In this document: positions 1,074 through 23,166 of the stretch, one piece after another | Layout: each line of letters begins with the position of its first letter | Position numbering within the stretch: the stretch's first letter is position 1 | Assembly: GCA_026770585.1 (NCBI GenBank) | Contig: MU647424.1 | Location: forward strand, 88,048-111,213 | Reading direction: 5' to 3' | From: Baffinella frigidus | Lineage: Eukaryota > Cryptophyceae > Cryptomonadales > Baffinellaceae | DNA: 23,166 nt | Notes under the pieces: generated by a model | What the model saw: the letters and a program-made list of their open reading frames with translations, nothing else | The model's database searches: none | What the model was told of the DNA's origin: nothing | Made by a program: the position numbers and the translations under genes

Positions 1074-4000
1074 GTGCGCACCCTCAACCTTACATCCGTC
1101 ACCCTCAAACGCCATACCCTACACCCTCAACGTAGGGGTTAGGTGCCTTAGGGTTTGAGGTTGGCGACATGACTGCCAGGGTGGCGGCATGACTCCGACT
1201 CCGACCAGTCTCCGCCGCGCAAGGCTGGTGTCTTCGAAATCGGAAACTACACCCCACACCCTACACTGTGCTCCCCACACCCTACACTCTTCACACCACA
1301 CCCTACACTCTACACCCTCAACCCTACACCCGGAGTCATGCCGTGGGCGGCGTGATGCCTGATGGTGCAGGTGCGTTAGGGGTTAGGGTTGGGCACATGA
1401 CTGCGACTACCAACGTGCAGGGGGTGGGGGCGGGCGGAAGCGCCATGACTCAGGGTCGGACCAGAGCCCGCCGCGGAAGCCAGGTACTTTCTTGTCGTTT
1501 TTTTTGTTAAGTCGTTTTCGTAGAGGCGTTTTTTTTTGGCAAAGCCGTGGGATTCAAGAGAGGGGTTTGGGGTTTAGGGTTTAGGGTTTAGAGTTGGTGG
1601 TTTACCTCACGCGGTCAAGTGAAGAGTACAGACAGGGGTTACTCGGAATTCTGGACACGCACCGCCTAGGGTCCCAAAAGGTCCTACAGTAGGGCTAGTC
1701 CTAGGAGCATATGACCACTCCGAGGCGGGCTCGTCCTCAAGGCGCATACACTTTTGTATCACTCAACTCAAGGCGCAAGGGCCTCATTTAGGACCTGTAT
1801 CGAATAAAGAAGAAGAAGAAGCATAGGACCACCCTAGGGGCGAACACATTGATCGGGAAACGCGCCCTCAGCCCTAAACCCACAACCCTAAACCCTAAAC
1901 CCTAAACCCTAATCCCTACAACTTGAACCCTAAACCCTAAACCCTAAACCCTAAACCCTAGACCCTAAACCCTAAATCCTAAACCCTAAACCCTAAACCC
2001 TAAACCCTAAACCCTAAACCCTAAACCCTAGACCCTAGACCCTCAACCCTACATCCTCAACCAGGCCCCGCTCCCCACGGCGTGGAGGAGGAGGGGAGGC
2101 TCCTCGTGGGAGACACGACACACCCCGAAAACCGAAAACCGAAAATCGTAATCCAGGCGGGCGGGCGGGTGCATGGAGGAGGAGGAGTGGGGAGGGAGGC
2201 CCCGTCATCAACCCCAAACCATCAACCCTAGATCCCGGACTCTACACCAGGCGCGCGTGGGCGACCCTCAAACCCGAACCCTAAGCCCTGAACCCTAAAT
2301 CCTGCACCAGACGACGCGAGTGGCGGGCGGGGGAGGGGGAGAGGCCCCGCGTGGCAGTCACGAAACACCCCCAAAATCCTCAACCTTGAACCCTGAACCC
2401 TAAACCCTAATCCAGGTGGGCGGGGGCGTGGAGGAGGAGGAGGGGGGGAGGCTCCTCGGGGGCGACACGACTCGGACAGCGACCAGAGCCCTCCGCGCAG
2501 GTGTGCGGTGATAGGGGTTTCCCGCGCGGGTGTAGCCTGCGTTCTGGGGGCTTCCGCGAGTTTTTACCGCTGGTGGCGGTCCACTTGTAAAGGACTTGTA
2601 AAGGACTTCGAAAGTTAAAACTTTCAAGATACTGACATTTCTAGCCACGAGTGGTGGGGCGGGGAGAGTGTGCCGCATCTATGCTTCTGAATTCACCAGT
2701 CAGGGTGCGGAAGGGTACGTGGGAGAAAGAGAGGAGGGAGGGGAGAGAGAGAGAGGAGGGTGGAGAGAGAGAGAGAAGGGCGGGAGAGGGGAGGGGGGGG
2801 GGGGGGCACGATTCGGACAGCGACCAGAGCCCGCCATGCAGCTTTGGGTCTAGGGTTTTTCGGGTTCTCGAGTTTGTGCCTCGTGTTCAGGGTTCGCGAG
2901 TTTTTGCCGTTGGTTCACGGTGTGCGAGATTTTACCCGGTGGTGGATTTCGCCGGGGAAGGTTTTGAGAGGTCTTGGGCAAGCTGGTTCACCCAATGTTT
3001 AAGGTTTAGGGGTTAGTGGTGAGGGTTCTCAACCGTAGCCCCTAAATCCTCAACTCTAAATCCTGAACCCCAAACCCCACACCCTAAACCCCACACCCTA
3101 AACCCTATACCCTAGACCCTAAACCCTAGACCCTAAACCCTGAAACCTAAGCCTCGTTGGCAGGGGTGGGGGGGACCTGAGCCCGGCGCGCAAGGGCGCT
3201 TCCACGGGTGGTAAACCCTCAACCCTAAACACTAAACACCAAATACTCAAACCCAAACCCTAAAACCTAAAACCTAAAACCTCAACCCTGAACCCTAAAT
3301 CCTAAAACCTAAAACCTGAACCCTGAACCCTGAACCCTAAACCCAAGCCCCCAAATCCTAAATCCTAAACACCAACCATAAACCATAAACCATAAACCAT
3401 AAACCATAAACCATAAACCATAAACCATAGACCATAGACCATAGACCCTCAACCCTAAACCCCAAACCCCAAATCCCAAACCCGAAACCAGGCGACGAGG
3501 GGGGGGGGCAGAAGGGGCCGCGCACCGTCAACGGCCTCAAAGCCGGGTACACCCTTAACCCTAAAACCTAAACTCTCAACCCTAAACCCTGAACCCCAAA
3601 ATCTAAAACCTGAACTCTAAACCCTGAAACGTCAACCCTAGCCCTATATTCTGAACCCTGACCCCTAAACCCTAAACCCTAAACCCTAAACCCTAAACCC
3701 CAAATCCTAAACCGTAAATGGCCTGGAAGCTGGATGTGGCATGCGCGCACGCTGGTGTGCTGTTCCGCGCCAAAGTTGACGGTTTTGTACCGCAATCCCA
3801 GCGTGTCAACTTGCGAATAGTCTGCTTACGCGACTGAGCAACGTCGTGTGCACACGACGTGTGTTGACGGATGCTGACTTGAAAAGGTGTGTGCTGACGG
3901 ATCACGACCGCGGCGTGCAGCTTCGTGTTTTTACCCGGTACTAATCGGACGTCACGACGCAGCTTCGTTGGTACTAATCGGACATGACCAGGTCGTTTCC

Positions 4001-5472
4001 CGGTACTCATCGGACGTGACCCGGGTGTTGACTGGTGCTGATTGGACGAGACCGCAGCTTCCTCGGCACGAATAGGACACGACCGCAGCTTTTACCCGGT
4101 ACTAATTGGACGTGACTGCAGGTTCGTGTCCGGGCGGGAGCTCAACGACACCATGGACAAGAAGAAGCAAGACGAGAACGATCGGTACACTCCGCGCCCG
4201 GAGACGAAAACGGCTAGATTTCGGCAGGACAGCCTTGATTTCCGATGTGAAACTCAACGTTTCACGTCTAAACGTTGCGTGTTTTTACGGTGCGAAGTGA
4301 AATTTCGCGAAGTGGTCGAACTTGAAAAGACGTAACCTAATGGTGTCCGGGCGGGATCTCAACGACGCCATAGACAAGAAGAAACAAGATGAGGACGATC
4401 GCTGCGTTTTGAGATTCCCCCGGGGAACATACGTTATGTAACGGTATAAAAGGCGGTCACGTCCTAGACCCTAGACCCTCGAAACGCGTTTCGTGTGAAG
4501 GCGTTTCACCTACTCTTAACATCCAGATTGTGTGCTCTTCCCCGTCCCAGACGCGTTTGGTTTTGGGCAAGGTGTGCGTTGTCGCCTGATGAAATGCATT
4601 TCCGTCCCAACGTGTTCCCGGATTTATTCGCGGTTGACCGAAAAGGCTTGAAAGGTTGGATGGGTTCGAGGCCTCTGATGGTGTCAACTTAAGAGAGGCC
4701 CGCTCTGAAAGCGTTCCCGGATGAACACCCGAAACGATAAACCATACACCCGAATCAGCTTCAAGAAGCTGGACAACGCGACGACGGGGAAGGTCGCCGA
4801 GACCGTCTACCGAGACAAGGTCTGCCCCTCTGCCTCACACCCTCAACCCTACACCCTACACCCTACACCCTACACCCTACACCCTACACCCTACACCCTA
4901 CACCCTACACCCTAAGCCGAGACCGTCTACCGAAACACAGGTCTGCCCCTACACCCTACACCCTACACCCTGCACCCTAAACCCTAAACCCTACACCCTA
5001 AACCCTCAACTCCTAGACCCTCAGCCGAGAGCGTCTACCGAGACAAGGTCTGCCCCTCTACCCTAGACCCTAACCTCTTTCGACGTAGTTGACTTCCTTT
5101 CGACGCAGTTGACTTTCGACGTGGTTGGCCCACCTCCTAAACCCCAAACACCAAACCCTAAACACCAGACCCTAAACACCAGACCCTAGACCCTAGACCC
5201 TAGACCCTAGACCCTAGACCTTGGACCCTGGACCCTGGACCCTGGACCCTGGACCCTGGACCCTGGACCCTGGACCCTGGACCCTGGACCCGAACCCGAG
5301 ACTGTCTACCGAGACAAGGTCTGTCCCTCTACGTGAAAGGGTCTTTCGACGTAGCTGACTTGACACACCTCCTAAACACTAAACACTAAACCCCAAACAC
5401 TAAACCCCAAACACTAAAAATCCTAAACCCTGAGCCCCAAACACTAAACCCTAAACCCCAAACCCTCAACCA

Positions 5473-5552
<80 letters not shown>

Positions 5553-8531
5553 ACCCCAAACCCTAAACCACAAACCCCAGACCCCAAACACTAAAACCCC
5601 AAACACTAAAAACACTAGACCCTACACCCTAAACCTAAAACCTAAAACCTAAAACCTAAAACCTAAAACCTAAAACCCTGAAACCTGAAACCTGAAACCG
5701 AAAATCAGGAGGGGAAGCGCGTGGAGGCGGACGCGACGAGCGGGAAGCGCAAGAAGACCGCCGACGAGGTGCCGACCCCTCAAACCCGAAACCCTAAACC
5801 CTAAACCCTGAACCCTACACTCTACACCCTGACCCCTACGTAGCTCTAGCTCTTGCAGAGTTCCGGAGGAGGCAGGCGAGTCTCGCGGGGGGGGTAGGGT
5901 CTCGGGTTGGGGGTTGGGGGTTGGGGGTTGGGGGTTGGGGGTTGGGGGTTGGGGGTTTAGGGTTGAGGATTTAGGGCTTAGGGTTGATGGATTGTGGATT
6001 AGGCAAACCCCAAAACCCAAAACCCAAAAACCAAAACCCAAAACCCAAAACCCAAACCAAAAAATAATAAATAATAAATAGCAAATAGTAAATAATCAAC
6101 AATACGCCTCTAAACCGAAAGCCAAACCCCAGGAGGAGACGGAGCTGAAGAACATGGTGTGGGGCAAGGGCCTCGTCCAGATGGAGGAGAAGCAGGAGCA
6201 GCTCCGCCGCCTCGAGGCCGAAAAGTCTCCCCTCCCACACACTCACCCCCCACACACACCCCACACCCCCCCCACACACACACACCCCACACACACACCC
6301 CACACACACACCCCCCACACACACCCCGCACACACTCGAGGCCGAAAAGTCTCCCCCACCTCCCCACCACCCCTGAGTGAGTGAGTGAGTGAGTGAGTTG
6401 GTGGGAATTAGTGCGTTGGAGAGTTAGCCAGCATCATGCAGATGGAGGATGAGGACAGATGGAGGAGACGCAGGAGCAGCTCCGCCGCCTCGTGGCCGAA
6501 AAGTCTCCCCCCCCTCCCCTCCCCCCCCCCACACACTCGAGACCGAAACGTCTGCCCTCCCCCCGCTCGTGCACGCCTTAAGTAAGTTGTAGATCAAAAC
6601 CGGTTTCCTATGAAATCGGACGAGCCAGGGGCGTTTCCTGGTACTAATCGGACATGGCTAGGGCGTTTCTTGGTACTAATCGGACGTGACGCAGGACGGC
6701 GCCGTTCGCGCGCACGGTGGAAGACACGGACATCCAGGACAAGGTCATCAACGATGCCTTTCCTGGTACTAATTGGACACGCCCGGGGCGTGCCGCGGTA
6801 CTAATCGGACACGACCGGGCAATTTCCCGGTACTGATTGGACGTGACCCTACACAGGACGGCGAGACGGCGCCGTTTGGTACTAGTCGGAAGTGAAGAAG
6901 GAGTTTTTTGGTATTAAGTGGACATGGCCCTACGCAGGACGGCGCCGTTTGCGCGCACGGTGGAGGACAAGGACATGAACGACGAGCTGAAGGCTGTCAC
7001 GCGCTGGGGCGACCCGATGGCAACACCCTCTACCCAACATCCTACTCCCGAAACCAGAAATCTGCAATCAGAAACCTGAAACCCGAACTCCGAAATCCCT
7101 ATACCCCTATACCCCTATACCCATATACCCATATACCCCCACACCCCTACACCCCTATACCCCTAAACCTCTATACCCCTATACCCCTGTACTCCTATAC
7201 TCCTATACCCCCATACCCAAAACACTTAACCAAAATAAGGACATGAACGAGGTCAAGGCGACGACCTCACCCGCTGGGGCGACCCTTGGTCAACTCTAAA
7301 CCCTAAACCCTAAGCCCTAAGCACTAAACCCTGAACCCTAAACCCTAGGACTGAAGTAAATCCTGAATCCTAAACCTTAACGGTTTAGGGTCTTGAGCCC
7401 GCTGGGGCGACCCTATGGTGACCCCCTCTCCACCAATTACTAACCCAGAAATCAGAAATCAGAAATCAGAAACCTGAAACCCGAAACCCGAAACCCCCAA
7501 CGATAAACCCGAACCCCGAAACCCTGAACGCTAATACCCCACCCCAATACCCAAAACACTATTCCAATCCCTCAACCCTTAAACCCTAAATAATAAAGCA
7601 CGAGCCATGAACCACGAACCCTAAACCCTAAACCCTAAACCCCTGGTGCAGGCCACGCGCACCGCAAAGGCCCAGACAGCCAAGCCCAAGTACACGGGGC
7701 CTTTCCCGCCCAACAGGCGCGCACCAACCCTCCACCCCCTCCCTCACCTACTCACTCCCTCACTCCCTCACTCCCTCACTCCCTCCCTCCCTCACTCCCT
7801 CCCTCCCTCCCTCCCTCACTCACTCACTCACTCACTCCCGGAAACACCCCCCCCCGGGGGGGGTTGGGGTGGATACACCCGTAGCCCGAGACTGGAAACC
7901 CGAAACCACAAACCACAAACCCTGAACCATAAACCCGAAACCATAAACCCTAAGCAGAGTCGCTGACGCGCCAGGGTGCTGCTGGGACAGCTGGATAAAT
8001 CGCTTTCAACGGCTTCGAGCGCAACCACTTCAACTCTCTAAACCCTCAACTGCAAACCCTTAACTGCAAACTTCAAACCCTAAACTGCAAACTCTAAACG
8101 ATAAATAACAAATAAATAAAAAATGATAAATAATAAATAATAAAACCATAAACCTGGGCTAACAAAGCACACGTGGAAATACAGGTTCGGGGTGCCCCCC
8201 GGGTACCGTTGGGACGGCGTGGATCGCTCCAACGGCTTCGAGCGCAACTACTTCAACTCTGCCAACACCCGCCGCCAGCAGGTGCGCTTGCGGCTTCGGG
8301 TTTGCTGCTGGTAGTTGGGGTTCGCGGTTTACGGTTCTGGTACTGAACCCTCAACTTGTGGCATGCAATGTTTCGTTGTTTGCCGGAGTGTCGACGGGGA
8401 GCGTAGTGCTCCTAAACCTCAAACCCAAAACCCAAAACCCAAAACCCAAACCCCAAAACCCAAAACCCAAACCCCAAAACCCAAAACCGCAGGACCACGA
8501 GGCGCACATGTGGTCGACAGAGCAGATGTAA
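973..8531 (+). CDS. BUD13: BUD13 homologue, RES complex subunit (multi-exon, 5' partial)
   Basis: In the known family, BUD13 joins Snu17/IST3 (RBMX2) and Pml1 (SNIP1) in the nuclear RES complex, which stabilises the activated spliceosome and retains unspliced mRNA. I read 15 exons: 973-1073, 1180-1227, 1421-1483, 2416-2500, 2704-2847, 3164-3210, 3492-3546, 4122-4184, 4759-4819, 5709-5768, 6133-6224, 6938-7019, 7652-7716, 8185-8281 and 8493-8531. All junction phases agree and yield 366 codons with no stop before TAA at 8529. Residues 1-162 are the disordered HDSD/SPPR repeat region. Residues 175-366 are the conserved BUD13 domain: [48 protein letters not shown] and the terminal WSTEQM. In the family, the segment around the [12 protein letters not shown] motif binds the Snu17 RRM. 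The N-terminus is missing. Introns make up about 85% of the locus. Family identity is very secure. The first seven exons are less certain than the last eight. Confidence 0.9.
1180..1227 (+). CDS. BUD13: BUD13 exon, HDSD repeat
   Basis: Acceptor CCAG|G, donor GTGTCT. It reads [16 protein letters not shown] in phase 1 in, 1 out, continuing the previous exon. It is one repeat unit long and flanked by heptamer-rich introns of 106 and 193 bp. Confidence 0.72.
1421..1483 (+). CDS. BUD13: BUD13 exon, glycine run plus HDSG repeat
   Basis: Acceptor GCAG|G, donor GTACTT. A short Gly/Arg stretch precedes [15 protein letters not shown]. Phase is 1 in and 1 out, matching both neighbours. Confidence 0.72.
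1484..2415 (+). repeat. BUD13 intron with T-runs, unique insert and CCCTAAA arrays
   Basis: T-runs at about 1500 and 1530 are followed by a short G-rich TTTAGGG patch (1561-1605). Next comes a unique segment (about 1610-1865) with fragments resembling the core of family A elements (CCTACAGTAGGG, CCTAGG). A homogeneous CCCTAAA array covers 1870-2040. At 2065-2118, 2156-2205 and 2288-2355 lie truncated copies of the next exon (EAPRGRHD-like reading) separated by more heptamers. Confidence 0.75.
2416..2500 (+). CDS. BUD13: BUD13 exon, [17 protein letters not shown]
   Basis: Acceptor CCAG|G, donor CGCAG|GTGTGC, phase 1 in and 2 out. A glycine-rich stretch leads into [17 protein letters not shown]. 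Shorter copies of its first half lie in the intron upstream. Confidence 0.68.
2501..2703 (+). other. BUD13 intron, mostly unique sequence
   Basis: One of the few introns here without a heptamer array. A short direct repeat, CTTGTAAAGGA, occurs twice at about 2583-2607, and an imperfect inverted repeat GAAAGTTAAAACTTTC lies at 2610-2625. Confidence 0.6.
2704..2847 (+). CDS. BUD13: BUD13 exon with Arg/Glu/Gly low-complexity run
   Basis: Acceptor TCAG|G. The donor is probably GTCTAG at 2848. The exon stays open through a GA microsatellite (about 2725-2805) coding for an Arg/Glu/Gly stretch and then reads [12 protein letters not shown]. Phase is 2 in and 2 out, so the exon could also be skipped without a frameshift. 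The length of the G run at 2792-2806 is prone to sequencing error. Confidence 0.5.
2848..3163 (+). other. BUD13 intron, unique then CCCTAAA
   Basis: Unique sequence to about 3030 contains TTCGCGAGTTTTTGCCG, which resembles TTCCGCGAGTTTTTACCG in the intron at 2501-2703. After it come CCCTAAA/CCCTAGA units up to about 3150. Confidence 0.6.
3164..3210 (+). CDS. BUD13: BUD13 exon, DLSPARK
   Basis: Acceptor GGCAG|G, donor GTAAAC, the most canonical donor of the gene. It reads [16 protein letters not shown] in phase 2 in and 1 out. DLSPPRK-like motifs are common just before the conserved domain of BUD13 proteins. Confidence 0.65.
3211..3491 (+). repeat. BUD13 intron, CCCTAAA and ATAAACC arrays
   Basis: Degenerate CCCTAAA/CCTAAAA units are followed at about 3366-3446 by a homogeneous ATAAACC heptamer array, then CCCCAAA units. 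It is almost entirely repeat. Confidence 0.75.
3492..3546 (+). CDS. BUD13: BUD13 exon leading into conserved domain
   Basis: Acceptor CCAG|G, donor GTACAC, phase 1 in and 2 out. It reads [17 protein letters not shown] and continues in frame into [10 protein letters not shown] of the next exon. Together these match the K-A-G-x-V-S-G-R-E-L start of the conserved BUD13 region. Confidence 0.7.
3841..3860. repeat. 20-bp perfect palindrome
   Basis: ACGTCGTGTGCACACGACGT is its own reverse complement. It sits in the intron just upstream of the branch-point array. Confidence 0.97.
3930..4121 (+). repeat. 32-bp tandem array of branch-point/acceptor units
   Basis: Units follow the pattern GGTACTAATCGGACGTGAC, then about 6 bases, then CAG|CTTCGT. 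The branch-point-like heptamers start at 3939, 3972, 4004 (TACTCAT), 4036 (TGCTGAT), about 4068 (degenerate) and 4100, a spacing of 32-33. The last unit is the real 3' splice site (TACTAAT, then CAG at 4119-4121). Looser TGCTGAC copies lie at about 3871 and 3892. Confidence 0.9.
4122..4184 (+). CDS. BUD13: BUD13 exon, SGRELND
   Basis: It reads [20 protein letters not shown], ending two bases into an Arg codon completed by the next exon. The acceptor is CTGCAG|G and the donor GTACAC, the same hexamer as the previous intron. The lysine-rich helix after SGREL is typical of the family. Confidence 0.85.
4185..4758 (+). other. BUD13 intron with duplicated exon copy
   Basis: It holds a second copy of the preceding exon at 4343-4401 and mostly unique sequence with several GAAACG/CGTTTC inverted repeats, such as GAAACGCGTTTC at 4491-4502. 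Two CCCTAGA units sit near 4465. A GGTATAAAAGGCGG stretch at 4443-4456 resembles a TATA box. Confidence 0.65.
4343..4401 (+). pseudogene. Duplicate of the SGRELND exon
   Basis: It reads [18 protein letters not shown], the same frame logic as the exon at 4122-4184 with mainly conservative changes. It lacks a GT after the last shared base (CT instead) and a recognisable acceptor. The similarity stops exactly at the original exon end. Confidence 0.75.
4759..4819 (+). CDS. BUD13: BUD13 exon, FKKLD...AETVYRDK
   Basis: Acceptor ATCAG|C, the only acceptor in the gene not followed by G. Donor GTCTGC. It reads [20 protein letters not shown], matching the F-K-x-x-D ... A-E-x-V-Y-R-D-K block conserved in BUD13. 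Phase is 2 in and 0 out. Confidence 0.88.
4820..5708 (+). repeat. BUD13 intron, several homogeneous heptamer arrays
   Basis: In order: CCCTACA array (4849-4914); exon-end copy; CCCTACA/CCCTAAA; exon-end copy; three TTTCGACGTAGTTGACT-like repeats (5078-5128); CCCTAGA then CCCTGGA array (5173-5288); exon-end copy; one more TTTCGACGTAGCTGACTT; CCCTCAA array (5465-5553); CCTAAAA array (5632-5678). It ends TCAG|G. Confidence 0.85.
4916..5330 (+). repeat. Three copies of the AETVYRDK exon end plus donor
   Basis: Copies of CCGAGACCGTCTACCGAGAC with the following donor GTCTGCCCCT end at 4940, 5047 and 5318. The third differs slightly (GTCTGTCCCT). Each is separated from the next by heptamer repeats, so up to four equivalent donors exist for this intron. 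Confidence 0.9.
5709..5768 (+). CDS. BUD13: BUD13 exon, Lys-rich linker
   Basis: Acceptor TCAG|G, donor GTGCCG, 20 codons exactly (phase 0/0). It reads [20 protein letters not shown], the basic linker between VYRDK and WGKGLVQ in the family. Confidence 0.82.
5769..6132 (+). repeat. BUD13 intron with C-rich and G-rich arrays
   Basis: CCCTAAA-like units (5778-5835) are followed by a G-rich GGGGGTT array (5907-5957), TTTAGGG-like units (5957-5995), CAAAACC repeats (6005-6060) and an ATAATAA patch. The C-rich and G-rich halves could pair with each other. Confidence 0.75.
6133..6224 (+). CDS. BUD13: BUD13 exon, WGKGLVQ
   Basis: Acceptor CCAG|G, donor GTCTCC. It reads [20 protein letters not shown] and then [11 protein letters not shown], the hallmark WGKGLVQ block plus its coiled Glu/Arg helix. 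Phase is 0 in and 2 out. The last Lys codon is completed by the next exon. Confidence 0.9.
6335..6552 (+). repeat. Three copies of the LRRLEAEK exon end plus donor
   Basis: CTCGAGGCCGAAAA|GTCTCC is repeated with the GT at 6349. A longer copy (6440-6492) starts back at CAGATGGAGGA, with GT at 6493. A degenerate one, CTCGAGACCGAAAC|GTCTGC, has GT at 6550. C-rich or CA-rich filler separates them. Confidence 0.88.
6640..6937 (+). repeat. Branch-point/acceptor array before the PFAR exon
   Basis: Branch-point-like heptamers start at 6642, 6673, 6764, 6800, 6831 (TACTGAT), about 6880 (TACTAGT) and 6911 (TATTAAG). CAG|GACGGCG acceptors end at 6694, 6856 and 6937. The unit GGTACTAATCGGACGTGAC is the same as in the array at 3930-4121, although this is a different intron. 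Confidence 0.9.
6695..6757 (+). pseudogene. Partial duplicate of the PFARTVED exon
   Basis: It reads [21 protein letters not shown] after a proper acceptor. The start is identical to the real exon and then diverges. It has no RWGDPM end and no donor at the matching place. A shorter copy (APF only) follows the acceptor at 6856. Confidence 0.75.
6938..7019 (+). CDS. BUD13: BUD13 exon, PFARTVED ... RWGDPM
   Basis: Acceptor CGCAG|G. It reads [20 protein letters not shown] then RWGDPM. It is the only copy with both a complete start and a complete end. The base after ATG is GC (GCAACA), so this donor would be a GC donor. Two later copies of the exon end have GT. Phase is 2 in and 0 out. Confidence 0.88.
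7020..7651 (+). repeat. BUD13 intron, CCCCTATA array and exon-end copies
   Basis: A CCCCTATA array (7095-7220) precedes an exon-end copy. CCCTAAA-like units, a second copy, then AATCAGA and CCCGAAA tandem patches and CCCTAAA follow, up to CTGGTGCAG|G. Confidence 0.82.
7238..7419 (+). repeat. Two copies of the RWGDPM exon end
   Basis: The first (7238-7288) covers AAGGACATGAACGA to GGGGCGACCCTTG with small deletions and is followed by GTCAAC. The second (7398-7417) is CCGCTGGGGCGACCCTATG followed by GTGACC. Both have GT where the full-length exon has GC. Confidence 0.88.
7652..7716 (+). CDS. BUD13: BUD13 exon, [12 protein letters not shown]
   Basis: Acceptor GCAG|G, phase 0 in. It completes DPM|A and reads [20 protein letters not shown] then N and the first two bases of Arg. 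The donor is GCGCGC, a second GC donor. Using it makes the next exon join as NR-FGVPPG, exactly as in the family. Confidence 0.85.
7717..8184 (+). repeat. BUD13 intron, CACTCCCT array and decayed exon copy
   Basis: A CTCACTCCCT microsatellite (7742-7838), C and G runs, CATAAACC-like units and a decayed copy of the next exon are followed by AACTGCAAACCCT repeats and an ATAAATAATAA patch before ACAG|G. Confidence 0.8.
7972..8037 (+). pseudogene. Decayed duplicate of the [12 protein letters not shown] exon
   Basis: It runs from a GTGCTGCTGGGAC segment to AACGGCTTCGAGCGCAACCA and CTTCAACTCT, tracking the exon at 8185-8281 but with changes in the WDGVDRS part, including an in-frame TAA. CCCTAAA-like repeats begin directly after it. 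Confidence 0.85.
8185..8281 (+). CDS. BUD13: BUD13 exon, [16 protein letters not shown]
   Basis: Acceptor ACAG|G, donor CAG|GTGCGC. It reads [19 protein letters not shown] and then [13 protein letters not shown]. This is the most conserved BUD13 signature. Phase is 2 in and 0 out. Confidence 0.93.
8282..8492 (+). repeat. BUD13 last intron, AAAACCC array
   Basis: About 130 bases of unique sequence are followed by an AAAACCC-type heptamer array (8419-8487) that runs up to CCGCAG|G. Confidence 0.8.
8493..8531 (+). CDS. BUD13: BUD13 terminal exon, AHMWSTEQM stop
   Basis: It reads [12 protein letters not shown] followed by TAA. BUD13 proteins end with an aromatic-W-S-x-x-x-M tail, so this is the natural C-terminus. 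A family A element begins 32 bases after the stop. Confidence 0.9.
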   Translation, partial: DHEAHMWSTEQM

Positions 8532-8563
8532 GCCGCCCTTCTTTAGGTCCGTTACGTCCTTGA

Positions 8564-8666
8564 CAGGGGTACCTCGCTCATAAGAAAGCGCCCCCCCCCC
8601 CCTAGGAGCACCACAGGGCCCTGGGATTAGGCCTACTGGCGTTTTCTTATGCGCGAGGTACCCCTG
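8564..8666. mobile_element. Family A element, copy 1
   Basis: The left end is CAGGGGTACCTCGCTC and the right end its inverse, GCGCGAGGTACCCCTG. The core has CCTAGG and GGGCCC. Flanks are GA and TA. It is non-autonomous, 103 bp, and nearly palindromic. Confidence 0.9.
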
Positions 8667-8682
8667 TAGGTCCTTTAGGTGC

Positions 8683-8757
8683 CCCTGCAGGTCCTTTAGG
8701 TCCTTTGGGTTCTTTTAACTCCCACCATAGGCGGACACCCCGTCCGGGAAGAAAGGC
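8683..8757 (+). mobile_element. Family B arm
   Basis: CCTTTGGGTTCTTTTAACTC followed by CCACCATAGGCGGACACC. It matches the family B consensus, which begins near TTTAGGTTCTT and contains ATAGGCGGACAC. Confidence 0.75.
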
Positions 8758-9334: not shown

Positions 9335-9406
9335 GAAAGGAGGGGGTCAATCCCGGCATAGCCGGGCACCTTACCGTTTCGTAGTCGGACTCGGCAGAAC
9401 CGTCTA

Positions 9407-9512
9407 CAGGGGTACCTCGCTCATAAGAAAGCGCCACCCCCTAGGACCCTACAGTAGGGCCCTATGGTGGTCCTATGGGGGGGGGCGGTTTCTTATGAGC
9501 GAAGTACCCCTG
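9407..9512. mobile_element. Family A element, copy 2
   Basis: 106 bp, CAGGGGTACCTCGCTC to AGCGAAGTACCCCTG. TA on the left, CA on the right, so the TA target duplication is partly decayed. Confidence 0.9.
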
Positions 9513-9915: not shown

Positions 9916-10362
9916 GGACCTAGTGGCTATGTCAGGGCCGAAAATGGAAAAAACTGTGAATTCACTTGGTCAAAAATCCCGTGTTTTTTGGTGGGGGGAA
10001 GGACCGAGAAGGGCAGCAACGAGGGAGGGGGAGGGGGATGCATGCCCAAGCAATGCCCTGAGCCGCTTGAAAGATGTGCTGTCGGGGGGCTCCCGAGTTG
10101 AGCCTGGGCCCGGCGCCCCCCGCATCGCGGACAGCAGCGCTCTTGCTGGTTCCATCGTTGTGTGGACCTTTGGAGGGGCCGCGTTTTGGAGCTGTTGGGC
10201 CTGCTCAGAACCTTGCTGGCCCTGGATACCGCGCAAAGGAAGAGAGAGGTCAGGTCACGTGCAGTCAACACGTTGTGTACAACGACATTGATTGTTACCG
10301 ACACGGTCGCCATGGATGCCCCCCCAGTGGCTCCGGACGAGCAGGGACAACGAGAGGGGGTA

Positions 10363-10484
10363 CAGGGGTACCTCGCTCACAAGAAACTGCCTCCCCCTAG
10401 GACCCTACAGTAGGCCTATCCTAGGGCCCTTACATGTAGGTGGTCCTAGGGTGGGGGCGGTTTCTTATGAGCGAGGTACCCCTG
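10363..10484. mobile_element. Family A element, copy 3
   Basis: 122 bp from CAGGGGTACCTCGCTC to GAGCGAGGTACCCCTG. TA on the left, TT on the right. Confidence 0.9.
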
Positions 10485-12302: not shown

Positions 12303-13100
12303 ATGACATCGAAGAAGAGCGCGATCGTCATCTCGGAGGAGGAGGAGGAGGAGGAGGAGGAGGAGGAGGAGGAGCTGCTTCTTGAAGCAGCCCCACTATT
12401 CATTGCTGGCGCGCATGCTGCGGGTTCGAATGCTTCGGGTTCGAACAATGAGGAGCAGGAGGCAGAAGAAGCGGGAGCAGCAGAAGAAGAAGAAGACCAC
12501 CTACCACCTGCTGCCACCGCGAACTACCGTGAGATGGCGTCAGCCATGAGAGAGCGAGCGGGCGGGTACGCCGCGCAACTCGCAGCGAAGGCGCGCGAGC
12601 GCTGGTCGGGGAAAACTGTCGGCACCCTCAGCGCCGGCGCGGGAGTGAGCGGGGTGGCGCTCGCCGCGCCGGCCGTCGCTGGTTTCACGGCCGAGGGCGT
12701 GGCCGCAGGAAGCGCAGCGGCCGCGTGGCAGAGCAGCATCGGTGGCAGTGTCGCGGCAGGCTCAAACTTCGCAGCCCTCCAGTCGTTCGGCGCCACCATG
12801 ACCGTCGCGCCTGCGGCTGGGGCCGGGCTCGTGGTGGCGGGTCTTGTGGGGGCGGGCTACCTCGGCTGGCGCCGCTACAACGAGGGCCCCCCCGCAACCC
12901 CTGTGCCCCCCGGAGGCCAAGACCCTGTATTTCTCTCGGAAGCGGCGTTGCGGAATGCCATCGTCGAGCTTGGAGGCCGGCCGGAGGACGGCATGGAGAG
13001 GGAAGCGCTTGTCGCGCTGTACCGGGCGCTCGTGGCGGAGAGAGACGCGGGGGTGGCGGGGGGGGGGGGGGGGGGGGCGGGGAAGGAGGAGGTGGCGTAG
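12303..13100 (+). CDS. ISG12/IFI6-like glycine/alanine-rich membrane protein
   Basis: 265 aa. Residues 12-24 are a run of 13 Glu and residues 50-65 are also acidic. Residues 76-101 form a basic helix. Residues 110-188 match the ISG12/IFI6-16 pattern: small hydrophobic helices with AAPAVAGFTAEGVAAGS, a Trp-containing middle, GGSVAAGSNFAALQSFGA and a last hydrophobic helix ending GYLGWRR. The C-terminal part (about 207-248) is a predicted soluble helical region, then a Gly run. Animal family members sit in mitochondrial, ER or nuclear membranes and affect apoptosis or antiviral responses. The function in protists is unknown, so none is inferred. ATG at 12303 is the first in a frame that stays open back to 12216, so an upstream exon is possible. 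No intron is seen. The G run at about 13059-13077 makes the last 15 or so residues uncertain. Confidence 0.75.
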   Translation: MTSKKSAIVISEEEEEEEEEEEEELLLEAAPLFIAGAHAAGSNASGSNNEEQEAEEAGAAEEEEDHLPPAATANYREMASAMRERAGGYAAQLAAKARERWSGKTVGTLSAGAGVSGVALAAPAVAGFTAEGVAAGSAAAAWQSSIGGSVAAGSNFAALQSFGATMTVAPAAGAGLVVAGLVGAGYLGWRRYNEGPPATPVPPGGQDPVFLSEAALRNAIVELGGRPEDGMEREALVALYRALVAERDAGVAGGGGGGAGKEEVA

Positions 13101-13470: not shown

Positions 13471-13689
13471 AATAAACAACCGTGCCCACAATGCATGGCG
13501 GCTGTGGTACTCATACAGGGGTACCTCGCGCATAAGAAAGCGCCCCCCCCCAGGACCGTACAGTATGATACAGTAGGCCTATGCCTAGGGCCCTTTGGTG
13601 GTCCTAGGGGGTGGGCGCTTTCTTATGAGCGAGGTACCCCTGTAAAATAAACAACCGTGCCCACAATACACGGCGGTTGTGGTACTCAT
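13471..13689. repeat. 43-bp flank duplicated on both sides of a family A element
   Basis: AATAAACAACCGTGCCCACA... ending GTGGTACTCA lies at 13471-13513 and again at 13646-13688 with 3 differences. The element at 13516-13642 lies between. The end of the flank (GTACTCATCAACGTC) recurs a third time at about 14316. Confidence 0.88.
13516..13642. mobile_element. Family A element, copy 4
   Basis: 127 bp with perfect ends CAGGGGTACCTCGCGC and GAGCGAGGTACCCCTG. TA lies on both sides (13514-13515 and 13643-13644), consistent with a TA target duplication. Confidence 0.92.
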
Positions 13690-14840: not shown

Positions 14841-14957
14841 CAGGGGTACCTCGCTCATAAGAAAGAGCCTCCTGCTAGGACCCTACAGTAGGCCTACGCG
14901 TAGGGCCCTATGGTGGTCCTATAGGGGAGGCGCTTTCTCATGAGCGAGGTACCCCTG
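14841..14957. mobile_element. Family A element, copy 6
   Basis: 117 bp with intact ends and TA on both sides (14839-14840, 14958-14959). Confidence 0.92.
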
Positions 14958-15221
14958 TACACGGTGTGTACCTGTACGAATCTGGCGCTTTGTAGCGCCC
15001 CGCACGTGCGGGTCCCTGTAACCCTTACACTGGTATCTGGGCTATTTATAAGAACACGGGTGCTCCGACATCGGTTGGTGTCTTTTTAAAAAAATCGTAC
15101 TAGAGGGTTGACTAAAAGCAAGATTTATTTAACCCTCTGGTACTAAATTAAAATAACGGGGGGCCCAACTTGGGACTGTGTTCTTAAGTTTTGGTTTCTT
15201 ATAGCCTTGATGCCCTTGTAT

Positions 15222-16145: not shown

Positions 16146-16263
16146 CAGGGGTACCTCGCTCATCAGAAAGCCGCCCTCCCTAAAACCCTACATTAAGCTC
16201 ATGCCTAGGGCCCTATGGTATTCCTGGGTAGGGGGTCGTTTTCTTATCTGTGAGGTACCCTTG
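16146..16263. mobile_element. Family A element, copy 7
   Basis: 118 bp with ends CAGGGGTACCTCGCTC and TGTGAGGTACCCTTG. TA on both sides. Confidence 0.9.
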
Positions 16264-16640
16264 TAAACAATGGCCAATGGGTATTCCCCTTCTGAACCCC
16301 CTCCTTGCCGCTCTCGAGCGGGAGGGACCTCCTTGCCACTTTCGAGCGGGAGGGACCAACCTAAAGGGTTCTCAAGACTTTCACCACGGGGAGGGGAGCG
16401 AAAGCATGCTGTTGCCCCCACCACACACCGCACTTCCAAGGCATTTTGAATAACCCATAAGCGATAAGAAACATGACCTTACGGTAGGCAATCCGCAGGG
16501 ACATCATCTGTTTTGGACCTTTCTGAAATCTCCAGATGTGTAGTAATTTTCGTGCATTCGAGGAACCCCCGAGCAATTTAATCAAATGCCTGGCGGGACG
16601 AGATCAGCATGTGGTATCCCAGACCCCACGGAGGTTATTC

Positions 16641-18284: not shown

Positions 18285-19764
18285 ATGTCCGGATCCCCTT
18301 CTTGTTCATCACCCGCCCCAGGACTGAACTGGGACGAAGAACTTGCATCAGGACGGCAGGCGCAGATCATGGACCAGCACCAGCAAGTGGTGGAGGACCT
18401 GGTCAACGATGGACTCTGCCACGCCGCGTCCTTCTTCTCGACCACAACTGCATCCCCGCCGCGCCGACGTCGCCAGCGCCCGCTTCCTCTCGAAAGCCCA
18501 TCCATTGCAGCGAGCTGCAACTCGCTGGATGCGCCGCTCGTGCGGAGCCTCAGTGACCCGCCTGCCGTCTCAGCGTCATCTCATCTACACCAGAGGCCAC
18601 TCGCAGCGCTCTCGCCCTATCACGGCGGTGTCGATGAGGGCATTTACGGCACCCCCCCGATCGTTCGTCGGCATTCGAACGATGCCGGGGCTTCCCCTTG
18701 CAAGCCCATCCGGCTCGTGCGGGCCCCCAGCGCCCCGCCTGCCGTCGCCCCGCCTTCTCCCGCACACCCTCTACAACCTGAGGGGGCGCCAAGCGGGCGG
18801 TCGCCGCACGCGCACCTCCTTTTGGCCGTGGCTATGGCCAAGAGGTGAACGCCCTAAACACACCACCCTAAACGCTACACCCTAAACGCTGTGGCCACGG
18901 CCAAAAGGTGTAAGCCCTAAACGCCACACCCTAAACGCCACGCCCTAAACGCTTCACCCTAAACGCTACACCCTGCACCCTGACCCCAACCCTGCACCCC
19001 AAAGCAGCAAGGTGACCCCGTGGACGCTCTCGCCACAACACTCGTCTGTGGGGGAGAGAGAGCGATCGCCGCTGCACGGGGGAGAGAGAGGGGGGAGAGA
19101 GAGCGATCGCCGCAAACCCTCTACACCCTCGACCGACCAGGGCATCGGGGGAGAGGTGGGTTCGGGGGAGGGGGGTGCGCGGGTGCGGCTCTCGAGCTCC
19201 ATCCCGCTGGACGCGCCGCTCGTGCGGGGCCCCAGTGCCCCGCCTGCCGTCGCCCCGCCTTCTCCCGCACACCCTCTACAACCTCCGCGGACTTCGAACG
19301 GGCCAGTCCATAGCCTCAAGGAGGGGAATGGGGCCAGGAGAGGCTCGTCTCCGACCACGTCGCCACAGCATCATTCGCTGCGCGCGCACTCGCGTCAGCG
19401 CCGGCACTCGCGGGAGTCCTCCAGAGACCCGTCTCCGTGCACTCCGGCAACGTCGCCACAGCATGACTCGCTGCGCTCGCACTCGCGGCGAAAGTTCCTG
19501 TGGGCGCCCACCTCGGGCCCCGACTCGCCGCTTGTGGACACCCGAAAAGACGTCTCCCCAACCATTCGGCGGTCTCAGTCGGCAGAGCCGCTATCTCCGC
19601 CAGCACAGCCTCTGGGGCACACCCCAGTGGAACAGCTCCACGCGGGTCGCTCGATTCAGGTCCCGAGTGGGGTTACCCGCAACGTCACATCAGGGCTGCG
19701 CAGCGGCTCCTCAATGCCAACGCGCACGCGATCGTCGCCTAAGTGGTCTCATCAGGCCCTTTAA
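18285..19764 (+). CDS. Ser/Pro/Arg-rich disordered protein, two exons
   Basis: Exon 1 is 18285-18844 and exon 2 is 19008-19764. The intron has donor GTGAAC and acceptor CAG. Splicing joins the two open frames exactly (AG|C gives Ser) into 438 aa. ATG at 18285 is the first after an in-frame TGA at 18261. Residues 1-40 contain an acidic/Gln helix (NWDEELASGRQAQIMDQHQQ). The rest is Ser/Pro/Arg-rich with basic-Ser motifs (RRHS, RRSQS) like kinase or 14-3-3 sites. A segment reading PLVRGPSAPPAVAPPSPAHP recurs, and so does SPQHDSLRSHSR. No family is recognised. A scaffold or regulatory role would be a guess. Translation ends at a TAA inside a family B arm. Without expression data this remains a moderate call. 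Confidence 0.55.
18523..19290 (+). repeat. Three copies of a 40-75 bp coding repeat
   Basis: CTCGTGCGGGGCCCCAGTGC and the following CCGCCTGCCGTCGCCCCGCC... occur at about 18709-18780 and 19208-19283, nearly identical for about 70 bases. A more diverged shorter copy lies at 18523-18570. All lie in the same reading frame of the Ser/Pro-rich gene. Confidence 0.88.
18845..19007 (+). repeat. Intron of Ser/Pro-rich gene, CCCTAAACG array with duplicated donor
   Basis: 163 bp. CCCTAAACGC-type units surround a second copy of the exon end plus donor (GTGGCCACGGCCAAAAG|GTGTAA, GT at 18908). The original is GTGGCTATGGCCAAGAG|GTGAAC. Using the second donor would include an in-frame TGA. Confidence 0.75.
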
Positions 19765-21512: not shown

Positions 21513-22540
21513 GAGTTTGGGATTTAGGGTTTAGGGTTTAGGGTTTAGGGTTTAGGGTTTAGGGTTTAGGGTTTAGGGTTGAGGGTTTAGGGTTGAGGGT
21601 TGAGGGTTTAGTGTTTAGTGTCCAAGGTTTAGCGTTCAGGGTTTAGGATTTGGGGTGTAGGGTTTAGGGTTTTATGGTTTAGGGTTTGGGGTTTGGGTTG
21701 TAGGGTTTAGGGTCTAGGGTTTAGGGTTTAGGGTTTAGGGTTTAGGGTTTAGGGTTTAGGGTTTAGGGTTGAGGGTTGAGGGTTGAGGGTTGAGGGTTTG
21801 GTGTTTAGTGTCCAAGGTTTAGGGTTCAGGGTTTAGGATTTGGGGTGTAGGGTTTACGGTTTTAGGGTTTAGGGTTTGGGGTTTGGCTTGGAGAATTTAG
21901 GGTCTAGGGTTTAGGGTTTAGGGTCCAGGATTTGGGGTTGAGGGTTTAGGGTTGAGGGTTCAGAGTTGAGGGTTTAGGGTTTGCTAGGATTTGGGGTTTA
22001 GGTTTGAGGATTTAGGGTTCAGGGTTTCGGGTTTAGGGTGTGGGGTTTGGGGTTGAGGATTTAGGGTTTAGGGTTAAGAGTTTGGGGTTTAGGGTTTGGG
22101 GTTCATGGTTGAGGGCGTAGGGTGCAGAGTTGACTGTCTAGGATTTAGGTATGAGGGTTTGGTACTAGAGTTCAGGGTTTTGGGTTTTGGGTTTTGGGTT
22201 GAGGGTTGAGGGTTTCAAACCCCTAAAAGGGTTAAGGGTTAAGGGTGTAGGATTGAGGGTTGAGGGTTCAGGTTTCGGGGTTGAGGGTTGAGGGTTGGGG
22301 GTTGAGGCGTGAGGGTGAAGGGTTTAGGATATGGGGTTTAGGGTTGAGGGTTTAGGGTTTAGGGTTCACACTCTAAGGTTGAGTGTTGAGGGTTAAGGGT
22401 TTAGGGTTTAGGGTGTAGGGTTTAGGGGTTGGGGCTCAGGGTGTAGGGTTTAGGGTTCAGGGTTCAGGGTTGAGGGTTCAGGGTTCAGAGTTTAGGGTTC
22501 AGGGTTTAGGGTTTAGGGTTTAGTGTTAAGGGTTAAGCGT

Positions 22541-22572
<32 letters not shown>

Positions 22573-23133
22573 GGTCTGAAGTTTAGGGTTGAGGGTTGAG
22601 GGTTAAGGGTTGAGGTTTTAGGGTTAAGAGCTGAGGGGTTTGTGTTCAGGGTTAAGGGGTAAGGGTTGAGGGTTGAGGGTATATTGATTGGGGTTCAGGG
22701 TTTAGGGCCTAGGGTTAAGCGTTGAGGGTTGAGGGTTTAGGGTTTAGGGTTCAAGGTTTGGGGTTTAGGGTTTAGGGTTCATGGTTTAGGGTTGGGGGTT
22801 GAGGCTTGAGGGTGAGGGTTTAGGGTTCAGGATTTTGGGTTCAGGGTTTAAGATTCAGGGCTTCAGGTTTAGGATTTAGGGTTGAGGGTTGAGGGTTGAG
22901 GGTTGAGGATTAAGGGTTTGGGGTTGGGGGTTGAGGGTTGAGGGTTGAGGGTTGAGGGTTAGGGTTGTGGTTGAGTGTTGGGGGTTGGTGTTTTCTAGAG
23001 CTTGGGGGTTATGGTTGAGTGTTGAGGGTTGAAGGTTCAGGGATCGGGGCTTAGGGCTTAGGGTTGAGGGCTGAGGTTTGAGGGTTGAGGGTTGAGGGTT
23101 GAGGGTCAAGGTTCGAGGTTTACGATTTAGGGT

Positions 23134-23165
<32 letters not shown>

Positions 23166-23166
23166 G
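21513..23166. repeat. Long degenerate TTTAGGG/TTGAGGG array to window end
   Basis: TTTAGGG units dominate at 21525-21780, mixed units follow, and TTGAGGG dominates from about 22540 onward. A block of about 170 bp (starting with a TTTAGGG run, then TTGAGGG, TTTAGTGTCCAAGGTTTAG, GGATTTGGGGTGTAGG) occurs twice, at about 21525-21700 and 21715-21890. No exon-like module was seen inside. Confidence 0.92.

Follow-up and report, generated by a model that had tools for sequence, protein, structure and literature searches.

Partial copies of exon edges in the introns of BUD13 and further genes of the cryptophyte Baffinella frigidus

In the BUD13 gene of Baffinella frigidus, pieces of exons recur inside the introns next to them, in part beside C-rich arrays of telomere-like heptamers. 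The locus thus raises the question of how these copies arose, and what part the arrays played in it. A preliminary description had offered two origins: insertion of arrays at staggered breaks that are then filled in, or tandem duplication taking place repeatedly. Here, the exons of BUD13 and their copies were mapped, a census of exon copies was taken over BUD13, CK2alpha and TCP1, and introns were compared among kinase paralogues. The observation stands and extends beyond BUD13 to other genes of this genome.

The BUD13 gene and its exon-edge copies

The window analysed, 23,166 nt of cryptophyte nuclear DNA, sits at the end of a 111-kb contig (C1000:88048-111213) in a 382-Mb assembly. Positions 4122-8531 code for the C-terminal half of BUD13/CWC26 (Pfam Bud13, E 2.3e-45), a splicing factor and subunit of the spliceosome RES complex, and solved chains named BUD13 homolog match at E 2.5e-28. 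With splice sites inferred from the reading frame, the protein match and AG/GT(GC) borders, the eight exons join in frame (Table 1); the introns start with GT in five of seven cases and with GC in the other two, and all seven end in AG. Over the 25 introns of BUD13, CK2alpha and TCP1 (contigs C1000, C7 and C94, corrected CK2 edges), GC donors were found in three, namely BUD13 introns 5 and 6 and TCP1 intron 16. Further N-terminal BUD13 exons lie at 289-2848 of the window, where a 13-residue motif recurs many times between heptamer arrays; some of these are real repeat exons, and others may be copies.

Among proteins the best match is P0001, deposited for Baffinella frigidus, long blocks of which are identical to the exon-joined translation. 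It includes peptides matching two copies of E5 (one of them DGETAP, the other corresponding to the copy 6689..6733) and is without VTRWGDPM and YTGPFPPN; the next best match, ENA protein P0002 (78% identical), has a single canonical form of the sequence in one copy. Both omissions fall where a gene finder accepting GT only would sidestep the GC donors. P0001 is likely a gene-model error, and alternative splicing could also have given rise to its peptides. Automatic gene models in such genomes may splice decoys in, as the deposited BUD13 protein apparently does.

Table 1. Exons, exon-edge copies and repeats of the BUD13 region (positions in the window)
Feature	Position	Strand	Basis
BUD13 exon E1 (SGRELND exon)	4122..4184	+	in-frame join, AG/GT
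BUD13 exon E2 (AETVYRDK exon)	4759..4819	+	in-frame join
BUD13 exon E3	5709..5768	+	in-frame join
BUD13 exon E4, ending LRRLEAEK	6133..6224	+	in-frame join
BUD13 exon E5, GC donor	6938..7019	+	in-frame join
BUD13 exon E6, GC donor	7652..7716	+	in-frame join
BUD13 exon E7	8185..8281	+	in-frame join
BUD13 exon E8, including TAA stop codon (8529-8531)	8493..8531	+	in-frame join
Copy of E1 bases 5-63, 90% identical, downstream of E1	4343..4401	+	BLAST/census
Copy of E2 end and donor (from E2 base 38)	4916..4950	+	census
Copy of E2 end and donor	5024..5062	+	census
Copy of E2 end and donor	5296..5330	+	census
Copy of E4 end and donor	6335..6356	+	census
Copy of E4 end (from base 46) and donor, 95%	6456..6514	+	census
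Copy of E4 end and donor	6536..6561	+	census
Copy of E5 start and acceptor, upstream of E5; matching 16-residue peptide in P0001	6689..6733	+	census
Weak second copy of E5 acceptor/start	6838..6879	+	6838-6863 by BLAST (E 2e-4), rest by eye
Copy of E5 bases 32-78, downstream	7237..7285	+	census
Copy of E5 end and about 80 nt of intron (matches 7002-7099), 81%	7400..7497	+	sequence alignment, census
Copy of E7 bases 14-76, upstream of E7, touching neither splice site	7971..8037	+	census
Intron 2 with 521 nt of C-rich heptamer array, sense strand	4820..5708	+	array scan
32-bp minisatellite units (GGTACTAATCGGACGTGAC) ahead of E1	3929..4116	+	sequence repeats
The same 32-bp minisatellite units (GGTACTAATCGGACGTGAC) within intron 4	6632..6847	+	sequence repeats

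Every BUD13 copy named in the preliminary description was present (E-values of 2e-4 to 2e-25), and those of E1 (4343-4401), of the E2 end (4916, 5024 and 5296) and of the E5 end (7237-7285 and 7400-7429) were recovered as copies of these edges. Three copies of the E4 end were likewise found (6335-6356, 6536 and one more), but the one placed at 6440 really lies at 6456-6514, with only a short CAGATGGAGGA match just ahead of it. For the E5 start, two copies had been claimed; the one at 6689-6733 is sound, and that at 6857 is weak, having in its best alignment seven exon bases plus the acceptor side, below the overlap rule of the census. The E7 copy reported at 7972 exists (7971-8037), but it covers bases 14-76 of the 97 exon bases and reaches neither splice site.

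Units of the 32-bp TACTAAT minisatellite stand twice just ahead of BUD13 acceptors. As a candidate for a genome-wide branch-point element this unit was rejected, since it has 11 exact matches genome-wide on three contigs only (including C20:149749-150282 and C447:85699) and looks like an ordinary minisatellite elsewhere. The rest of the window holds a second gene-like stretch at 18511-19303 with local direct copies of 56-86 nt (18511/18713/19193-19218) and a 63-bp repeat at 18828-18953 that by eye resembles another exon end with donor and array, and also an open reading frame at 12303-13100 with an Ifi-6-16 domain match (E 3e-8). Dispersed short elements occur at 8563-8713, 9405-9512, 10361-10484, 13518-13644, 14843-14962 and 16148-16268; their copies are 66-81% identical, many begin with ACAGGGGTACCTCGCTCATAAGAAA or a variant, and by eye they are MITE-like. 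A megablast of the window gave no related phage record, no viral contig was found with the 25-base repeat of the dispersed element, no Rfam match in the window reached the gathering score, and ARAGORN found no tRNA in it.

Exon copies in three housekeeping genes

The census covered the 28 exons of BUD13, CK2alpha (contig C7, L039, found through a scan of the kinase family) and TCP1/CCT1 (contig C94, L050). Internal exons of these genes are small (42-222 nt) and stand between longer introns. With query flanks of 30 nt, 33 same-strand partial exon copies were recovered at 14 of the exons: 12 over the eight exons of BUD13, 14 over the three of CK2alpha, and seven over the 17 of TCP1, where six exons have copies. 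In CK2alpha all start copies lie upstream and number four for the exon beginning SKTPSLVFEHV, two for the second exon and three for the third. The first and third exons each have one end copy, downstream; of the mid copies, one lies on either side of the second exon and one upstream of the third.

The position of a copy follows from the part of the exon that it repeats. All 14 copies of exon starts lie upstream of their exon and all 13 copies of exon ends downstream, with no case on the opposite side; the remainder are one copy of a whole exon (downstream) and five of middle parts (four upstream, one downstream). One of the start copies (3970-4003, with 13 exon bases) is part of the 32-bp minisatellite. 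The only inverted match was inside its own exon. Matches with fewer than 12 exon bases were left out of the census, which removed the E5 acceptor copy at 6838 and matches of the E8 flank on arrays.

Dinucleotide-shuffled exons gave no match in five whole censuses, and exons compared with random 3-kb pieces of the other two genes gave none in 56 comparisons (E 1e-3 in both cases); these controls were run with 20-nt flanks, at which 32 same-strand copies are found, and with CK2 exon edges off by 1-4 nt, the side-rule census resting on corrected edges. The duplications are real. Among further loci, for which the query was the domain interval only, L018 has two start copies upstream and L044 one end copy downstream, and L042 and L049 (both TCP1) agree; most of the 38 usable loci, searched by domain interval without exon edges, gave no copies. 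A total of 39 such loci were tried, L040 being dropped owing to a cut flank, and several overlap or belong to TCP1.

The copies lie 81-770 nt from their exon and have decayed. Their exonic part is 89% identical to the exon on the whole, single copies differing from it by 0-26%. AG was kept in 11 of 12 copies and GT/GC in 10 of 12, compared with about 80% expected for two bases at 89% identity, so that the splice dinucleotides show no sign of selection on the copies. With flanks of 150 nt, 14 of the 27 start and end copies align for 43-150 nt of intron, lengths that are upper bounds, as these alignments are partly array against array, and 13 of the 27 align for at most 15 nt; the E1 start, the third copies of E2 and of E4 and the first copy of CK2 exon 2 have a neighbouring or array match as their best alignment. 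The earlier statement that copies stop at or just past the splice site is therefore not general. It suits the copy at 4343, which begins at exon base 5 and stops precisely where the exon does, without the donor GT, but the match between 7002-7099 and 7400-7497 extends over about 80 nt of intron (81% identity). An apparent end of homology 3-30 nt into the intron proved to be an effect of the 30-nt query flank, 150-nt flanks reaching further.

Copies that include or nearly include the junction number 28 of 33, only slightly above the mean of 23.0 under random placement (P 0.024). Sequence outside exons is locally duplicated too, in 106 of 347 intergenic windows (a figure that counts dispersed elements) and 78 of 189 intron windows (a figure that counts the exon copies themselves). 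Copying specific to junctions was therefore rejected, and the exon edges are the recognisable part of a general process of local duplication.

Telomere-like arrays and kinase paralogues

Of the 25 introns in BUD13, CK2alpha and TCP1, 24 contain arrays of the CCCTAAA type (in one case of only 15 nt), counted as chains of at least three heptamer-like words and on the uncorrected CK2 edges. They amount to 3072 nt in sense against 222 nt in antisense orientation; the net orientation is sense in 23 introns, by 21 nt or more, and antisense in none, and one run of base-shuffled introns under the same rule gave 347 nt in sense. At kinase loci with at least 12 heptamers of one kind, some of which overlap, the orientation is sense in 14 of 16, both exceptions being on contig C127. 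The opposite strand reads TTTAGGG, which we take to be the telomere repeat of this species, and it would offer an AG acceptor every seven bases, which is a likely cause of the bias. The window itself ends, at 21515-23166, in a 1.65-kb degenerate GTTTAGG array that runs up to the contig end, perhaps a chromosome end.

An array (here at least two words) was found within 12 nt of 16 of the 33 copies, that is six of 12 in BUD13, six of 14 in CK2alpha and four of seven in TCP1. For random intron segments the proportions are 25%, 15% and 20%, respectively, so that copies adjoin arrays about 2.5 times more often. Heptamer filler between the copies, as first described for BUD13, is not universal: 17 of the 33 copies are without a heptamer array within 12 nt, and intron 4 contains a CA/C-rich microsatellite and the TACTAAT minisatellite. 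Arrays and copies are associated, and an array is not required, as half of the copies stand alone.

Sites without the intron were found among kinase paralogues. By tblastn against the query protein, three paralogues are free of introns over the aligned stretch, C23 (residues 1-269), C35 (1-244) and C1019 (1-232); in the same kinase stretch C32 has one intron and C662 two. In C63 five introns were mapped, and its last exon ends in an array that continues into a gap. Four of its introns (55, 77, 96 and 188) are absent from C662 and C32 as well as from the three intronless members of this set of six, for which gain in C63 is the simplest account, since otherwise they would have been lost several times; intron 77 does not consist of array sequence. 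The same 11 bp stand as a direct repeat at either border of intron 188, an array 450 nt long, and the site is uninterrupted in the five other paralogues. Intron 188 is a putative intron, as its donor would be GA, or GC with two residues added. The gene C63 itself may be damaged, although no stop interrupts its joined frame over 242 residues. Intron 146, present in C63 and C662 and absent from C32, is bordered by AGGTCG on both sides; one gain plus one loss and two gains would be equally short histories. In the kinase tree, which has a midpoint root, the intron-bearing trio (C63, C662, C32) is separated from the intronless trio with support of 100/99, and because the root of the family was set by the midpoint a gain of intron 128 is not proved.

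No junction copies were found at any of the 11 exons of C63, C662 and C32 (exon census, E 0.01). Border-to-border similarity over 33 introns, the 11-bp case included, reached P values of 0.05-0.18 depending on the stretch considered, and is marginal or absent. A border resemblance at TCP1 intron 15 (intron start GTCATTCCCAAC, start of the next exon GTGATCCCGAAG) is suggestive only. Two candidates were discarded. The kinase set L011/L021/L025 had been taken as an empty-site comparison, but the 'insertion' of L011 is its own coding sequence, which the other two lack. In C63 intron 146 two sequences had been considered as start copies, but none was found at E 0.01, and they resemble only each other and a third sequence in intron 96.

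Origin of the copies

We consider it reasonably probable that the copies are relics of short direct (tandem) duplications across splice junctions, produced by repair of staggered breaks with fill-in. A duplication across an acceptor gives an extra exon start upstream, and one across a donor gives an extra exon end downstream. The side rule thus points to local duplication in direct orientation, after which splicing stayed with the exon-proximal site, since random, inverted or retro-copy pastes would break it, and the adjoining intron carried by about half of the copies favours tandem duplication. In the repair and splicing steps that we infer, overhangs at staggered breaks would be filled in and joined, which would duplicate some tens to about 200 nt at a time and often leave telomere-like or simple-repeat sequence between the copies, so that introns would be both made and lengthened. 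Within an exon such duplications would be purged by selection; across a junction they would survive because the exon-proximal site is used, and the extra exon edge would become intron and decay. Against this explanation stand the 11 kinase exons without copies, the sparseness of copies in TCP1, and the many domain-interval loci that have none. Furthermore, 13 of the 27 start and end copies share little intron with their exon flank and yet lie far from it; there a plain tandem duplication would have to have been followed by insertion, or by decay of the remainder.

The preliminary idea that the array itself was inserted at a break with a long staggered overhang, fill-in then duplicating the target on both sides, has several observations in its favour. 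Arrays stand directly between successive copies in BUD13 intron 2, copies adjoin arrays more often than random segments do, and one private array intron has the 11-bp border repeat; moreover, direct duplications at telomeric-repeat insertions are known from mammals, at 6 of 130 loci in rodents, 4 of 25 in primates and 3 of 66 in the horse (PMC2246262, PMC7215372). As a general origin of the copies it is nonetheless unlikely, for about half of them have no adjoining array, the excess border similarity over the 33 introns is marginal or absent, and the exons beside kinase array introns are without long copies, which argues against array insertion alone making them. Arrays without junction copies in related strains had been named at the outset as evidence against insertion; the kinase genes provide a near-case, in paralogues rather than strains. 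At the BUD13 copies tandem duplication and array insertion cannot be told apart, an empty site being known from the kinase paralogues only. Taking the three genes together, duplication with fill-in fits, while the arrays are companions and not the sole cause, as in CK2alpha, where an array is near only six of 14 copies. Short direct duplication across junctions, independent of arrays though commoner near them, fits better.

Amplification of a unit of junction and array by unequal exchange or slippage, in the manner of a small satellite after one first duplication, would explain shared boundaries: all E2 copies start at base 38-39, three of the four start copies of CK2 exon 1 end at base 38, and E2 copies 2 and 3 belong to a larger repeated unit with common downstream sequence (5033-5095 matches 5304-5361, in a scan that left out loci L001-L008). 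It is an improbable account of the whole, because breakpoints differ elsewhere (E4 46 and 79; E5 32 and 65; CK2 exon 3 33, 38 and 53), so that several initial events would be needed, and the first duplication is left unexplained. That selection maintains the copies for a function, be it as decoy splice sites, as alternative ones or as mutually exclusive exons, is quite improbable. AG and GT are mostly kept and P0001 has peptides of two E5 copies and lacks two canonical ones, but the choices made in P0001 fit a gene model avoiding GC donors, P0002 has the canonical single-copy sequence, and copies contain indels and truncations; selected splice sites were rejected on the retention of dinucleotides at the neutral level expected for 89% identity. 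Collapsed or mis-joined repeats in the assembly might be suspected from its N gaps and many simple repeats, but this is very hard to reconcile with copies that differ from the exon by varying amounts, occur on several contigs and follow one side rule, which mis-joins would not obey.

Known systems share parts of the pattern. Interstitial telomeric insertions at repaired double-strand breaks in mammals likewise consist of internal telomere-like arrays, sometimes with target duplication, none of the human ones being in exons and 31% in introns (PMC2246262, PMC7215372); here, nearly all introns of the three genes have an array, strongly sense-oriented, and private array introns interrupt the coding sequence of a gene-family member. 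Internal arrays of telomere type are thus common to both, empty sites were found here in the kinase paralogues only (intron 77 not being an array), and the candidates for target duplication at intron borders are the 11-bp repeat at one intron and AGGTCG at another, border similarity over the 33 introns being at P 0.05-0.18. CST and Pol alpha-primase, the machinery that also fills in telomere ends, make small duplications at breaks with 3' overhangs in mammals (PMC8355091). These too are short direct duplications of one site, and our 33 copies are all direct and local to one target, with no inverted copy outside the exon itself; unlike the mammalian ones, the copies here are decayed, repeated at one junction and separated by other sequence. 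Small tandem duplications reportedly also arise from adjacent nicks in plants.

Intron gain by AGGT duplication or during break repair, including direct repeats in Daphnia, is described in PMC3443670 and resembles the present case in direct repeats at some intron borders and in AG|GT borders. The copies in BUD13, CK2alpha and TCP1, however, lie inside introns beside the copied exon, the wrong side for the AGGT-segment model, and mark growth of existing introns and not their birth; the closest approach to that model is C63 intron 146 with its AGGTCG borders, intron 188 needing a GA or GC donor. Introners also provide many introns of related sequence, with target duplications of 3-9 bp in some families (PMC9860276, main text), but the filler here is a simple telomere-like repeat of very variable length, in which neither element ends nor terminal inverted repeats stood out in passing. 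A term search of the main text of that paper found no mention of cryptophytes, Baffinella or telomeres. PMC12730881 reports that a chlorarachniophyte gained introns at AG|G sites, half of them with AT repeats and not thought to be introners, and these are the nearest parallel seen for simple-repeat introns. The Baffinella genome paper (PMC9756366) gives 534.5 Mb, more than the assembly analysed here, and 41.1% repeats, and its main text does not contain 'intron', 'telomer' or 'splice'. A literature search, with subscription papers outside its reach, found no paper joining Baffinella with introns and, among its top papers, no account of introns filled with copies of exon edges, nor of new introns formed by telomere-like arrays.

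Tentatively, telomerase addition and telomere-type fill-in at staggered breaks might be a standing source of introns in this genome, C-rich arrays working as introns at AG|GT in sense orientation and repeated junction repair strewing decoy splice sites, so that splicing would rest on exon definition; joining telomerase and CST fill-in in one step is conjecture. On the main reading as well, whole exons would have to be recognised if the true site is to be told from near-identical decoys; for the CK2alpha exon with four near-identical acceptors ahead of it, the choice probably depends on the complete exon. The copies leave false splice sites for the cell to ignore and hint at how introns grow. 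If this reading is true, introns here record their own growth, in that each decayed edge can be set against the living exon next to it, and they would serve as a test bed for how introns lengthen and arise from non-transposon DNA and for how the spliceosome picks the true site among copies sharing 30-50 nt of exon sequence.
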